41,072 nucleotides of DNA, from the NCBI GenBank assembly GCA_022821965.1, contig JAJECN010000052.1, positions 1-41,072 on the forward strand, read 5' to 3'. Shown piece by piece: positions 36,847 through 41,072 of this stretch. This stretch comes from Candidatus Poribacteria bacterium. Its GTDB lineage: Bacteria > Poribacteria > WGA-4E > WGA-3G. Made by a program: the position numbers and the translations under genes. The notes beneath the pieces are model-generated. The model saw nothing but the letters and a program-made list of their open reading frames with translations, was not told the DNA's origin and made no database searches. Positions within the stretch are counted from its first letter, which is position 1; each line of letters starts with the position of its first letter.

Positions 36847-37988
36847 GGATCGGTGTCGTCTACTCTGGGGAACAGATACAACCGTGGCCATTTCGTGCCT
36901 TGTACCCTGTTCAATTGCGTGTAAACTGCATTGCAAATTCCAGTGTCATTCCCGAAAACCGTGTCCGTGTTGAAGAGTTCGCGTCATTCTTCGAGTGTGA
37001 TTTCTTTGAGAGCCCTGAAGAAATGTTCAATACAACGAAGCCGAAGTTAGATGGTGTTATCATTGTCTCAGAGGAGGCGGCAAGCGTGCCGCGTGCCCAA
37101 CTCATTGAATCAGCCCTTGCTGCAGGTATCAATGTTTTAGCTCCGGCAGCACCTGGCTCTTTAGAAGAGGGGATCCGCCTTGCTGCAGCATCTGAAAAAT
37201 ATAAACGGCTTGTCATGACAGGAACAAGGTTCATATTTGGCAGCTGTATTCAGGAAATCTTACGTATTGTAAGTAGTTCGGGGTTCGGAATTATTCAGGA
37301 CATGCGGTTCTTGCTCGGAATCGGACGCGTGCCGTATTTAAACGACTTGTTGAAGTTTGGAGACTTGCATTTCCAGATTGTCTTTGAGATCGTCCGTCGG
37401 CTCTTTGTAGAATATACGGTGCTGCCTGAAGAAGCGACCGTAATGGCTTCGAGGAATGGAGCACCGAACATCGCCTGCACTCTCAGGTTTCCGCAGGGTG
37501 CGCTTTGTACTTTCTGCCAGACTTCTAACCGTCAATGGGGAAACGACTCTTATCATAAAATTGAAATTACAGGTGGTGCCTCTTACATCTGGAGTGACCT
37601 GCAGACTTGGAAATGTTTCTCTATGGAGAACACTTTCAGGATGGGCGGCGGAGATGAGGAAATCTCGGCTAATATACAAGGCTCCTCCGGTCAACTTAAG
37701 GAGTTCTGTTTAGCTATTGAAGGCAATCGCGAACCTTATGCGGGCACGCTCCGGAGCACTTTGCCCGCGCTGTGGTTCCGAGAAAGATTACAAGACTGTA
37801 TTGAACACGGACAGACCAGTCTAAAACTGAGTGAGATTCGTGCGAACGCAGATGCTGAAATTCAACGACTGACCTCTCAGTTCGATGTTGATCCACAAAA
37901 CGGGGCGTCCCGACGTCAGAAGGCACTGCTCTTAGGTAAACGTGGTGATTTCTCCTTAGCACTTGCCGAGTACCACCAAACTTTGTGA
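36843..37988 (+). CDS. divergent Gfo/Idh/MocA-like protein with TPR-like tail
   Basis: This 381-residue protein starts as a Rossmann-like domain (MRIGVVYSGEQIQPWPFRAL), but the Gly-rich loop is not GxGxxG. The order that follows fits the family: LDGVIIVSEEAASVPRA, a helix, INVLAPAAPGSLEEGIRLAA, KRLVMTGTRFIFG, then a second domain (GDLHFQIVFEIVRRLF; ITGGASYIWSD). The EKP triplet is replaced by APA, so the catalytic Lys is missing. The last 30 residues (DPQNGASRRQKALLLGKRGD, then FSLALAEYHQTL) resemble one tetratricopeptide repeat. It is translated together with the unknown gene before it (ATGA overlap, GGGAGG upstream). It may be a non-catalytic sensor, given the regulator gene that follows (inference). 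Confidence 0.7.
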   Translation: MRIGVVYSGEQIQPWPFRALYPVQLRVNCIANSSVIPENRVRVEEFASFFECDFFESPEEMFNTTKPKLDGVIIVSEEAASVPRAQLIESALAAGINVLAPAAPGSLEEGIRLAAASEKYKRLVMTGTRFIFGSCIQEILRIVSSSGFGIIQDMRFLLGIGRVPYLNDLLKFGDLHFQIVFEIVRRLFVEYTVLPEEATVMASRNGAPNIACTLRFPQGALCTFCQTSNRQWGNDSYHKIEITGGASYIWSDLQTWKCFSMENTFRMGGGDEEISANIQGSSGQLKEFCLAIEGNREPYAGTLRSTLPALWFRERLQDCIEHGQTSLKLSEIRANADAEIQRLTSQFDVDPQNGASRRQKALLLGKRGDFSLALAEYHQTL

Positions 37989-38073: not shown

Positions 38074-39162
38074 ATGCATGGGAAAACTACGACTCAGATG
38101 CAGAACGTTACCAGGAATATTATCGGCGAATCGGCGCAGATGCAAGAGGTCTTTCGATCCGTAAACTTAGTCGCCCCTACAGAAGCAACTGTTCTCATTA
38201 CCGGTGAAACAGGCGTTGGCAAAGAGATTATCGCGCAAGCCATTCATGACAATAGTCCGCGTAAAAATGAGCCTTTTAAAGTAATCAACTGTGGGGCGTT
38301 TGCTCCAGAACTCATTCAAAGCGAACTCTTTGGACATGAAGAAGGGGCTTTTACAACCGCTATTAGGAAGCATCGCGGTATATTTGAACAGGCAAACGGT
38401 GGAACCTTGTTCTTGGATGAAGTCAGTGAGATGTCGCCTGAAGTCCAAGTGAAATTTCTGCGTGTCTTGGAACAGCAAGAATTTTCACCGGTCGGTAGCG
38501 AAGAAATAATTAAAGTGGATGTCCGAGTGGTAGCGGCAACAAACAGGAACCTTAAAACCGCGGTTAATAGAAAAAGATTTCGAGAAGATCTCTACTATCG
38601 ACTGAACCTCTTTCGTGTTCAGATTCCACCGCTCCGTAACAGGCGTTCGGATATCGCACCCTTGGCGTTTGATTTTCTCACCCAATTAAGCGAGAATTAC
38701 GATAAATTGATCATCGGTATAACCCCGGAGGCGGTTAAATATCTTCAGAGTATCAATTGGTACGGTAATGTGCGAGAACTCAGAAACGTAATAGAAACCG
38801 CACTTATCTTTGCAGAGGGCGAAGAATTAAAAAAAGAGGACATCGAAATGGCAATAAAAAACCTAAATGAAGCTGACGAACACTCAGATACTGACTCGGA
38901 AGCGTTTAGAGATTCATTCTCAAATGAAGTAGAGCCTTCACAAGAACCTAATGGAGACCCGCACATAACACCTGAAGATGTCAGGGGTAAATTATGGGAG
39001 CTCGTCCAGACCGGAACGATGTCCGAGATAACCTCTTATATTAGCCTTATGAGGTATGAGGCAGAAATTCTTCACTACTCCAAACGGGACATTGCCAAAC
39101 GTCTCCAAATATCTGTGCCGACCTTGGATAAATATCGGACATTGGCTGAGAAAAACACCTAA
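38074..39162 (+). CDS. AAA+ sigma54-activator-like protein with GAFTTA loop
   Basis: This 362-residue protein is a bacterial enhancer-binding protein of the NtrC AAA+ type, without a receiver domain. Walker A is GETGVGKE (44-51), followed by INCGAFAPELIQSELFGHEEGAF. The sigma54-contact loop is G91-A-F-T-T-A96 instead of GAFTGA. Walker B is TLFLDE (111-116), sensor I is AATNRNL, and the arginine-finger region is FREDLYYRLNLF. A linker (270-305) is acidic and disordered. The C-terminal HTH-like segment is KRDIAKRLQISVPTLDKYRT. ATG 38074 is chosen over upstream frame positions because AGGG precedes it. It lies 85 bases after the Gfo-like gene. Because GAFTGA normally contacts sigma54, the Gly-to-Thr change may weaken that activity. 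Confidence 0.88.
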   Translation: MHGKTTTQMQNVTRNIIGESAQMQEVFRSVNLVAPTEATVLITGETGVGKEIIAQAIHDNSPRKNEPFKVINCGAFAPELIQSELFGHEEGAFTTAIRKHRGIFEQANGGTLFLDEVSEMSPEVQVKFLRVLEQQEFSPVGSEEIIKVDVRVVAATNRNLKTAVNRKRFREDLYYRLNLFRVQIPPLRNRRSDIAPLAFDFLTQLSENYDKLIIGITPEAVKYLQSINWYGNVRELRNVIETALIFAEGEELKKEDIEMAIKNLNEADEHSDTDSEAFRDSFSNEVEPSQEPNGDPHITPEDVRGKLWELVQTGTMSEITSYISLMRYEAEILHYSKRDIAKRLQISVPTLDKYRTLAEKNT

Positions 39163-39498
39163 AAAAGTCGATGCACTTCCGCGAAAACTTACCATTGTCT
39201 TTCCCCACCCACTTATCAATTTTGTAGACCCCTCCTAATTCACATATTCGTTAATCAATACGGTTACCTGAGAACCCATTTTTTTCTCAATAGGGACCAA
39301 CTTTGGCAAAACCAAAATTTTTCGTCTTTACAAAAAATTTGGCGCGCATCACAAAAATTTTTGCGTCTTTACATGACTTAGCGAAACCGGATCTCATTGA
39401 GTTCAGAATCAATATAATGTTAAAAACCCTGATTTTACAAGGTTGTATCATATCTGAACTTGTAGAACCCGTAATGACACTCAGAAGATTGCGAGAGT

Positions 39499-39514
39499 TG
39501 GCACAGTTTTTGCA
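39499..39514 (+). promoter_or_regulatory. sigma54 (-24/-12) promoter, exact consensus
   Basis: TGGCAC (39499-39504), 5 bases and TTGCA (39510-39514) match the sigma54 core consensus TGGCAC-N5-TTGCA/T at every specified base, preceded by the favoured T. Transcription would start near 39526. It lies 337 bases beyond the AAA+ activator-like gene and points into the gene-poor stretch. Confidence 0.7.
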
Positions 39515-39692
39515 AGTTCCGCTAACCAGGTCCTCATCGCAGGAAATGCGCGAAAGATATTGGCCACCCTTCAAAATTTACTGGATGGGGACTTGGGGGC
39601 ACACAAAAATTGGGTTAAAATAAAAAAATTGTTGTATTTTATTTTCTTTTTTGCCATAATATTTCTTGGCATCCGTAAAATCCAGTATGGAG

Positions 39693-39725
39693 TGGTTCGG
39701 CAACAGTTGCAGCTGTCCCGAACCA
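39693..39725 (+). repeat. hairpin with 8-bp stem TGGTTCGG/CCGAACCA
   Basis: Arms 39693-39700 and 39718-39725 are exact inverted repeats around a loop that holds a smaller ACAG/CTGT stem. The GGTTCGG/CCGAACC core resembles the palindromes at 40661 and 40731. It lies downstream of the sigma54 promoter. Confidence 0.55.
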
Positions 39726-39855
39726 TGGCACTGCCAAGGGTAAGTTGCCAGTGCGTGTTTAAGTATATCACATATCTCATTTGATATGCCTTATATTTTA
39801 AGCAGCGTCGTAATGTTTACGTGTCTTTTTTTAAAGATTCACGCGTAATTACGAA

Positions 39856-39948
39856 TGGACGTTGGAGACGGATTGCCGAGGTAGTCCCTTCTATCTCCCG
39901 TCTCCGCCCAACTGGCAATTGGGTATGCGTCTGAGAATACAACGTCCA
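39856..39948 (+). ncRNA. candidate structured RNA with three-way junction
   Basis: A 9-bp closing stem (TGGACGTTG 39856-39864 with CAACGTCCA 39940-39948) encloses two hairpins. The first is GAGACGG/CCGTCTC (39865-39871 with 39898-39904, plus an inner GAGG/CCTT). The second is CCCAA/TTGGG (39907-39911 with 39919-39923). A T-rich tract follows at 39959-39970. Three independent exact stems nested in 93 bases suggest a folded RNA, but no known family is recognised. Strand is inferred from the downstream T-tract. Confidence 0.45.
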
Positions 39949-40137
39949 AATACCCCAATTTTTTTATTTTTCTGCTGGTGTTGATCTCTACTTGGCAGTG
40001 GCTTGCTGCGCTCTGGTTTCATTGGCAATACGCTGGACATTAGCGCGTGAAAGGACTTATTGTTTTACGCGGTGTTTCTTTGCGCATTGCGTAAGTCACA
40101 TTGAATTCACATGATGTTATATCAAGGAGAAAATCTG

Positions 40138-40584
40138 ATGAAAATCCTTAGATGTCTTTTTACACTTATTCAAATCGGTGTTCTTTCCATAATTCTCAGT
40201 GGTGTAGCGGGTGATTGTAATACTTATCAAGAATCGCCCTCGGAGGAAAACGCAATGCCCTCAGAGGATACCACAGCACCCATCCTCATTGGCGGAACTG
40301 TCAAAGATGGCGAGGAAGATGTTGATTACGAAGCGATCAATGAGGGCAAAACCATTGAAGTTACCTTCAGTGAAGATGTCTCAGGTAACATTACGCTGCA
40401 GACCGAAGGCGGCGACCATATCGGTTGGATCGGCATAGTTGAAGGTACCAAAGGCACACTTGAATTGGTCCCAGGTAAAGAGATCGCCCACAAGACAACT
40501 TATGTTATCAAAGGTAAAGTCACAGACGCTGCCGGTAACGAAACCGAAGTCAGTATAAGCTTTACAACCAAAGATAAAGCGTAA
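40138..40584 (+). CDS. secreted Ig-like (Big_5/SbsA-type) domain protein
   Basis: This 148-residue protein has a signal peptide (MKILRCLFTLIQIGVLSIIL, then SGVAG). A short Ser/Glu linker is followed by one bacterial Ig-like domain of the Big_5 type: DTTAPILIGGTVKDGEEDVD, then KTIEVTFSEDVSG, TLELVPGKEIAHKTTYVIKG, VTDAAGNETEVSISFTT. A Cys follows the cleavage region (AGDC), but the lipobox is not canonical. ATG 40138 is preceded by AAGGAGA at 7 bases; the open frame from 40111 is not used. It probably acts at the cell surface in adhesion or as a structural module. Confidence 0.85.
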   Translation: MKILRCLFTLIQIGVLSIILSGVAGDCNTYQESPSEENAMPSEDTTAPILIGGTVKDGEEDVDYEAINEGKTIEVTFSEDVSGNITLQTEGGDHIGWIGIVEGTKGTLELVPGKEIAHKTTYVIKGKVTDAAGNETEVSISFTTKDKA

Positions 40585-40630: not shown

Positions 40631-40660
40631 TGTCCAATTTTGGACACCCCAGGCCCAGTA

Positions 40661-40682
40661 GGTTCGGTTTCCTAACCGAACC
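40661..40682. repeat. GGTTCGGTT-TCCT-AACCGAACC palindrome, copy 1
   Basis: A perfect 9-bp stem with TCCT loop. The same core recurs at 40731-40752 and, extended, at 40895-40950. Confidence 0.85.
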
Positions 40683-40730
40683 CATAACTGTCAATTTTAG
40701 AAAAACAACCGTCTCAGACCTAGACCGGTA

Positions 40731-40752
40731 GGTTCGGTTTCCTAACCGAACC
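40731..40752. repeat. GGTTCGGTT-TCCT-AACCGAACC palindrome, copy 2
   Basis: Identical to copy 1 over 22 bases, with CCGGTA before it and GGATCC after it, so the flanks differ from copy 1. Confidence 0.85.
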
Positions 40753-40793
40753 GGATCCTACGCGGAAACCTTGAAGATTTCAAACACATCTTC

Positions 40794-40820
40794 AGTCCCG
40801 TAGGGACGCTATGTTTATAG
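40794..40820 (+). repeat. CCCGTAGGG-type dispersed palindrome, copy 5
   Basis: AGTCCCGTAGGGACGCTATG then TTTATAG. This is the same family and orientation as the copies at 13061-13140 and 34651-34730. Confidence 0.75.
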
Positions 40821-40841
40821 CAGCGTGTGACCAAAAAACTA

Positions 40842-40863
40842 AGTCCCGTAGGGGCGGCATTTG
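40842..40863 (+). repeat. CCCGTAGGG-type dispersed palindrome, copy 6
   Basis: AGTCCCGTAGGGGCGGCATT followed by TGG, a shortened copy 48 bases after copy 5. Confidence 0.65.
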
Positions 40864-40894
40864 GAGAGAGCCCTATAAAATGCCGCGCAAAATC

Positions 40895-40950
40895 ACTAAA
40901 TTGACACCTATGGTTCGGTTTCCTAACCGCACCATAGGTGTCAATTTAGT
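40895..40950. repeat. 56-base palindrome: 26-bp arms, one mismatch, TCCT loop
   Basis: Arms 40895-40920 and 40925-40950 are reverse complements except for one position (T in the left arm against C in the right). The centre CGGTT-TCCT-AACCG is the same as in copies 1 and 2, but here the flanks (ACTAAATTGACACCTATGG and its complement) also pair. Confidence 0.9.
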
Positions 40951-40990
40951 AGAAATATAAAAGTTTTCTTTTGAGAAAAATGCTGTGAAA

Positions 40991-41059
40991 TGGAAATACC
41001 TCTTGTATAATGTAGAAAAAGATTAGAGGTTAATTCTACAAAAAAAAGGGGTATTTCCA
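40991..41059 (+). promoter_or_regulatory. promoter region with a 10-bp inverted repeat flanking the leader
   Basis: A perfect TATAAT lies at 41006-41011. TGGAAATACC (40991-41000), in the promoter spacer, and GGTATTTCCA (41050-41059), ending at the base before the start codon at 41060, are exact reverse complements. This could be a pair of operator half-sites or a leader hairpin hiding the ribosome-binding site. Confidence 0.45.
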
Positions 41060-41072
41060 ATGTCCATTTTAC
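41060..41072 (+). CDS. start of a gene cut by the window edge (M-S-I-L...)
   Basis: ATG TCC ATT TTA is preceded by AAAAGGGG and, further upstream, a TATAAT box. Only four codons are visible, so the product cannot be named. It follows a cluster of hairpin repeats. Confidence 0.5.

Follow-up and report, generated by a model that had tools for sequence, protein, structure and literature searches.

A conserved sigma54 promoter and a putative leader RNA family in front of exported-protein genes of Candidatus Poribacteria

By comparing promoters, proteins and RNA structures among Candidatus Poribacteria genomes, we defined a multi-copy family of structured RNAs that is absent from Rfam 15 and confined to a single family of this phylum. 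One member lies between a sigma54 promoter and the gene of a predicted exported protein in the window, the whole 41,072-nt stretch of DNA analyzed here. Promoter conservation, the rpoN gene, the activator, the RNA structure, the association of sigma54 sites with the RNA and the exported downstream genes were all computed in this work. In the interpretation that we favor, with somewhat better than even confidence, the sigma54 promoter with its upstream activator and a basal sigma70-type promoter would feed a cis-acting leader switch that gates the exported protein.

The -24/-12 site at 39499..39514 on the plus strand (TGGCAC-AGTTT-TTGCA, TGGCACAGTTTTTGCA) fits TGGCACN5TTGCA exactly, with the spacing of the -24 GG and -12 GC that the sequence-only reading had claimed for it. 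As that reading also held, it is the sole match without mismatches to TGGCACN5TTGCW on both strands of the 41-kb window, where ~0.04 exact matches are expected by chance (an estimate from base counts), and it begins 337 bases past the stop of the activator gene at 39162. Transcription is predicted to start near 39526. The genome contains one copy of rpoN (PF04552, E 1.1e-58, a 653-aa open frame), and the promoter is kept in relatives: across 21 distinct module copies, aligned by the site, identity reaches 98% in the -24/-12 letters and falls to 65% in the 60 bases upstream and 44% in the 30 bases downstream. A stricter sigma54 pattern, TTGGCAYNNNTYTTGCW, has nine matches in the 5.69-Mb genome, and the reversed control pattern has 0. 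Several of these genomic sites precede exported proteins, and one precedes a glutamine-synthetase-like ORF, the latter identified by eye from its sequence. Glutamine synthetase is a classic sigma54 target, and these are the contents expected of a sigma54 regulon. The site persists in distant relatives, in which the activator is about 63-72% identical (loci L022, L062, L063 and L066), and the RNA element was not found at these four loci; the promoter may thus be older than the RNA at this locus.

The gene in front of the promoter (38074..39162, plus strand, with an alternative TTG start possible further upstream at 37963) had been described as sigma54-activator-like, and its product indeed carries the AAA+ sigma54-interaction domain (PF00158, E 1.3e-70) and the AAA lid PF25601. 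The AAA+ domain lies nearly at the N-terminus, and the protein has no N-terminal sensor domain. Its loop reads GAFTTA, not the canonical GAFTGA, in all sampled orthologs (15 distinct sequences), and given this loop its contact with sigma54 may be unusual. Because the PF00158 match is very strong, we nevertheless call the protein a bacterial enhancer-binding protein (bEBP) with a variant loop; since GAFTTA is unusual, we infer its link to the promoter from synteny and from the conserved upstream control region that ends at the -24/-12 site, here named module A (about 39302-39515, plus strand). The part of module A before the promoter itself is 39302..39498; it includes the AT-rich repeats AAAATTTTTCGTCTTTACA and AAATTTTTGCGTCTTTACA (39314-39373), which are candidate activator-binding sites. 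The module recurs separately at other loci. In relatives it is found beside the activator ortholog and also elsewhere, before different exported-protein genes, and these stand-alone occurrences suggest that the window's activator has a regulon of module A promoters. Module A without the RNA was observed before other exported-protein genes at loci L049-L053 and in the second copies of L056 and L057.

The region behind the promoter had been described as gene-poor and structured, and both parts of the description stood: no convincing ORF was found between 39163 and about 40110, and the folding z-score relative to shuffles was -5.5 for 39526-40110 and -6.4 for 39668-39968. The latter interval (39668..39968, plus strand) is the whole RNA element of what we term the long class, as defined by alignment, pairing and a non-coding indel pattern. 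It belongs to a module of about 39540-40060 that is dispersed separately from module A and occurs three times in this genome, with as many as six matches in other genomes. Aligning 36 copies gives a near-invariant core order consisting of the sigma70-type -10 element TGCTATAAT (TGCCATAAT in the window), GGCATCCGTAAAATCC, a chain of hairpins and a U run. We rejected a protein-coding role for the RNA core, as the length of just 16 of its 182 indels is divisible by three and open frames are not common to the copies, and a conserved small peptide at 39970-40055 was rejected because indels between copies break its frame.

The proposed secondary structure, all on the plus strand, is a domain of four hairpins closed by a helix P1. 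The 5' strand of P1 (GGCAUCCGU, 39668..39676) pairs with a 3' strand assigned from pair counts (ACGGAUUGCC, 39868..39877); it is 91.7% paired in the long class, often with an A.C mismatch, and covaries in the second, short class described below. Hairpin 1 (GUGGUUCGG...CCGAACCAU, 39692..39726) is 96.6% paired and has a compensatory C-G to G-C change in five copies. Hairpin 2 (GCACUGCCAA...UUGCCAGUGC, 39728..39754), which served as the search signature, is nearly invariant (99.7% paired) and contains a conserved 1x1 mismatch. Hairpin 3 (GUUUAA...UUUAAGC with an inner AU-rich helix, 39757..39803) is 97% paired and covaries strongly in the short class (helices 7-8), and hairpin 4 (UCGUAAU...AUUACGA, 39808..39854) forms pairs with compensatory changes. 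Hairpin P6 (GGAGACGG...CCGUCUCC, with the inner helix AGGUAG/CUAUCU, 39864..39905) forms all its pairs in 35 of 36 copies, and compensated variants were found at two loci (GGAAACGG/CCGUUUCC in L130, GGUGGCGG/CCGCCACC in L142). Hairpins 1-4 and P6 are supported by RNAalifold and by pair counts; over the long class, 92.9% of cells are paired, with 22 compensatory cells vs 5. The element ends in a terminator-like hairpin (AAUUGGGUAU...AUACCCCAAUU) followed by a U run (39917..39965), imperfectly conserved with a mean of 8.4 of 10 pairs in 36 copies. A candidate pseudoknot, GGACGTT/AACGTCC (39857/39941), is conserved in sequence and was rejected because covariation gives it no support. Searches against Rfam 15 gave no family above the gathering cut-off for the window, and nothing credible at relaxed thresholds for the window or other copies.

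The letters ACGG (39868-39871) are common to P1 and P6, and therefore these two helices are mutually exclusive. In a subset of the short class, the P1 3' strand GGAUUGC has a complement, GCAAUCC, further downstream at a consistent spacing (about +31 to +43), and the covarying pairs of P1 strand and partner in this subset include GGATTACC/GGTAATCC, GGATTGTT/AACAATCC and GGATCGC/GCGATCC. Scored against shuffled sequences, this partner strand is significant at the 5% level in just 20 of the 92 short copies. The alternative helix is thus present by sequence in the long class (the ACGG of P1 and P6) and with covariation in a subset of the short copies, not in all. From this pattern, which is not universal across copies, we infer a cis-acting switch function for the leader.

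The wider family was delineated with two covariance models. At the level of the order, the first (R1), made from the 5' part of the long-class RNA, had matches in 36 of 72 genomes, and widening the search to the 84 genomes of the phylum still gave 36, every one of them in a single family of Candidatus Poribacteria (f1). The second (R2), built from seven diverged short-class copies that R1 had picked up, matched 53 of the 84 phylum genomes, again all in family f1, with up to 17 matches per genome. Most of these genomes were assembled from metagenomes, and a copy close to a contig end may be truncated or have gone undetected. R2 also recovers several long-class copies, in the correct position and orientation, and since it was built solely from short-class copies, the two classes are related. 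In 75 short-class copies, 41 of 51 pairs have changes on both sides. The compensatory cells number 258, compared with 79±8 after shuffling, and 91% of cells are paired vs 34-42% with slid partners. The short-class alignment was fitted to the structure; even so, chance is a very unlikely source of this result in view of the slid control and of how many pairs are compensatory. Outside Poribacteria, matches to the hairpin-2 pattern came from a scatter of unrelated organisms and looked like chance, and a pattern search of IMG/VR for a viral home gave 0 matches.

Two kinds of promoters are predicted in front of the RNA. Upstream sequence was long enough for this count in 49 distinct long-class copies. 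Of these, 37 carry a sigma54 site no more than 260 nt before the RNA, compared with about one expected (about 0.02 per window), and the distance from the site to the RNA start is mostly 165-207 nt. These sites lie in unrelated upstream sequence and beside different activators, of which at least two types accompany long-class copies: that of the window and a divergently placed one, about 44% identical. A third activator type is present at the short-class loci L187 and L310. At L187, L291, L304 and L310, we observed the third activator, a sigma54 site, the RNA and an HxsA3-like small protein (NF038309, below cut-off), together in at least some of them. The sigma70-type promoter of the window copy (39632..39660, plus strand) was recognized by alignment as TTGTAT and CATAAT separated by 17 nt, with TG preceding the -10 element (TGCTATAAT in most copies). 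A -10-like element occurs at most 20 nt before the RNA in 46 of the 49 long-class copies, the window copy (CATAAT) being one of the three not counted, as the simple scanner did not call it. The element is kept in long-class copies with or without sigma54 sites, and some RNA copies of this dispersed family have no sigma54 site. Sigma54 is therefore probably not the sole promoter: a sigma70-type promoter of the RNA's own very probably lies immediately before it. As the long class keeps this adjacent -10 element, sigma54 may matter only in some conditions.

The first ORF past the leader in the window (40138..40584, plus strand) begins with ATG at 40138, has a Shine-Dalgarno sequence AAGGAG near 40124 and encodes a putative exported Ig-like (Big_5) protein (PF13205, E 9e-8) with an N-terminal hydrophobic segment; the sequence-only reading had made no mention of this ORF. 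Further downstream, the region 40660-40950 contains inverted repeats on TAGGTTCGGTTTCCTAACCGAACC and a longer palindrome around 40900-40949, which look like dispersed REP-type repeats. Near the contig end, at 40985-41060, the inverted pair TGGAAATACCTCT / AGGGGTATTTCCA is possibly an insertion-sequence end. In the short class, a Shine-Dalgarno ORF starts within 220 nt downstream in 68 of 92 copies (74%), and 64 of these 68 ORFs (94%) have a hydrophobic export-type N-terminus, as scored by a simple scale, not a signal-peptide predictor. The corresponding values are 23% and 43% for random positions, and 9 of 92 (10%) and one (11%) for the antisense side. Small exported proteins with cysteines and membrane proteins with a single membrane-spanning segment are among the products, as is one resembling HxsA3 (E 0.001, below cut-off). 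Judged by these neighborhoods, the short class, which is the wider one, is a 5' leader of exported-protein genes. For the long class, the gap between the RNA and the next ORF ranges from about 40 to 900 nt. The copies linked to sigma54 precede WD40, caspase-like and other exported proteins, and behind those that lack a sigma54 site there is often a small winged-helix (wHTH) gene, which in several cases starts right at the element's end. This winged-helix protein is about 120 aa long and has weak MarR/TrmB similarity (L018, L023, L038, L045-L047, L055), with six relatives in one genome. L263 (G000:C59:133144-133310) and some 20 orthologs form a single-copy group of the RNA that also has a member in this genome; the gene behind it encodes an N6/N4 DNA methyltransferase (PF01555) and is truncated or absent in some genomes.

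The sequence-only reading had suggested a regulatory RNA as the product. Two of the three outcomes that it had named as refuting, a genome that lacks rpoN and a site that relatives do not share, were not what we observed. The RNA part of that suggestion is borne out by a covarying structure, and a cis-acting 5' leader fits better than a free RNA, since the family is mostly a 5' leader of exported-protein genes. Since the long class has its own predicted promoter and a terminator-like end, its main rival explanation is a free-standing family of trans-acting sRNA genes, each made of a promoter, an RNA of about 300 nt and a terminator, with the exported genes as mere neighbors. The -10 element and the U run that flank the RNA, the several similar copies per genome and the variable long-class distance to the next ORF all agree with this explanation. 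It is nevertheless unlikely in our estimate, as the related short class is a tight same-strand 5' leader, and as the long-class copies without a sigma54 site often precede the wHTH gene, in several cases one that starts at the element's end.

It is improbable that the element is mainly mobile or repetitive DNA entering intergenic regions, with palindromes that serve mobility and a promoter association due to insertion preference. Dispersed non-orthologous copies, many matches near contig ends and long-class copies about 75-83% identical would suit such an origin, but the compensatory changes in the RNA, its fixed orientation before genes, the conserved -10 element and the near-constant distance to the sigma54 site speak against it. 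The least credible alternative is a chance -24/-12 match, with transcription solely from the sigma70-type promoter. The -10 element is compatible with this explanation, being kept in nearly all copies whether or not they have sigma54 sites; the conservation of the site against diverged flanks, the recurrence of such sites in unrelated upstream contexts and their excess over chance before the RNA make it very improbable.

We thus return to the cis-acting leader. At this locus, the activator encoded just upstream most likely switches on the sigma54 promoter, probably by binding the AT-rich repeats (about 39302-39373). A transcript that starts near 39526 would cross the ~300-nt RNA (39668-39968) towards the Big_5 gene at 40138. 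P1 (39668-39676/39868-39877) is predicted to close the domain around hairpins 1-4, and its 3' strand could enter the downstream helix instead, with the long-class RNA ending in the terminator-like hairpin and U run. The leader would then act as a riboswitch- or attenuator-like cis switch of the exported protein, with two inputs: sigma54 with its activator, and the basal sigma70-type promoter directly before the RNA.

Each part of this arrangement has known counterparts. LuxO is the activator of the Qrr RNAs, and CbrB that of CrcZ/CrcY. Like these sigma54-dependent small RNAs (Vibrio Qrr, PMC10162802, PMC8043402; CrcZ/CrcY, PMC6292655), the locus has a sigma54 promoter and a bEBP before a structured RNA, with several copies per genome as for Qrr. 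In contrast to them, the Poribacteria RNA is about 300 nt long, has its own putative sigma70-type promoter and belongs to a family found mostly as a 5' leader before exported-protein genes. Riboswitch and attenuator leaders share with it a conserved, covarying domain in the 5' leader, a closed multi-hairpin arrangement with P1, a candidate alternative helix downstream that would exclude P1, and an end that resembles a terminator or lies close to the RBS, whereas the Poribacteria RNA matches no aptamer class in Rfam searches and precedes exported proteins of many kinds, not of one pathway. The window's activator resembles PspF-like bEBPs without an N-terminal sensor in its AAA+ domain near the N-terminus and its membership in the sigma54 activator superfamily, and differs from them in the GAFTTA loop of all sampled orthologs and in its gene being beside the presumed target promoter, with dispersed like promoters.

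Poribacteria are uncultured sponge symbionts, and our literature search found no paper on sigma54 control or structured RNAs in this group. More tentatively, and with slightly less than even confidence, we suggest that one leader RNA class of this Poribacteria family controls many exported or surface proteins in response to a single signal, and that it has repeatedly become linked to different sigma54 activators, three or more in all. The loci would then provide repeated natural examples of one RNA domain tied to different sigma54 activators. A leader RNA common to many exported-protein genes would imply a common signal for proteins shown to the host or to rivals, and the leader RNA would be a handle for finding that signal.
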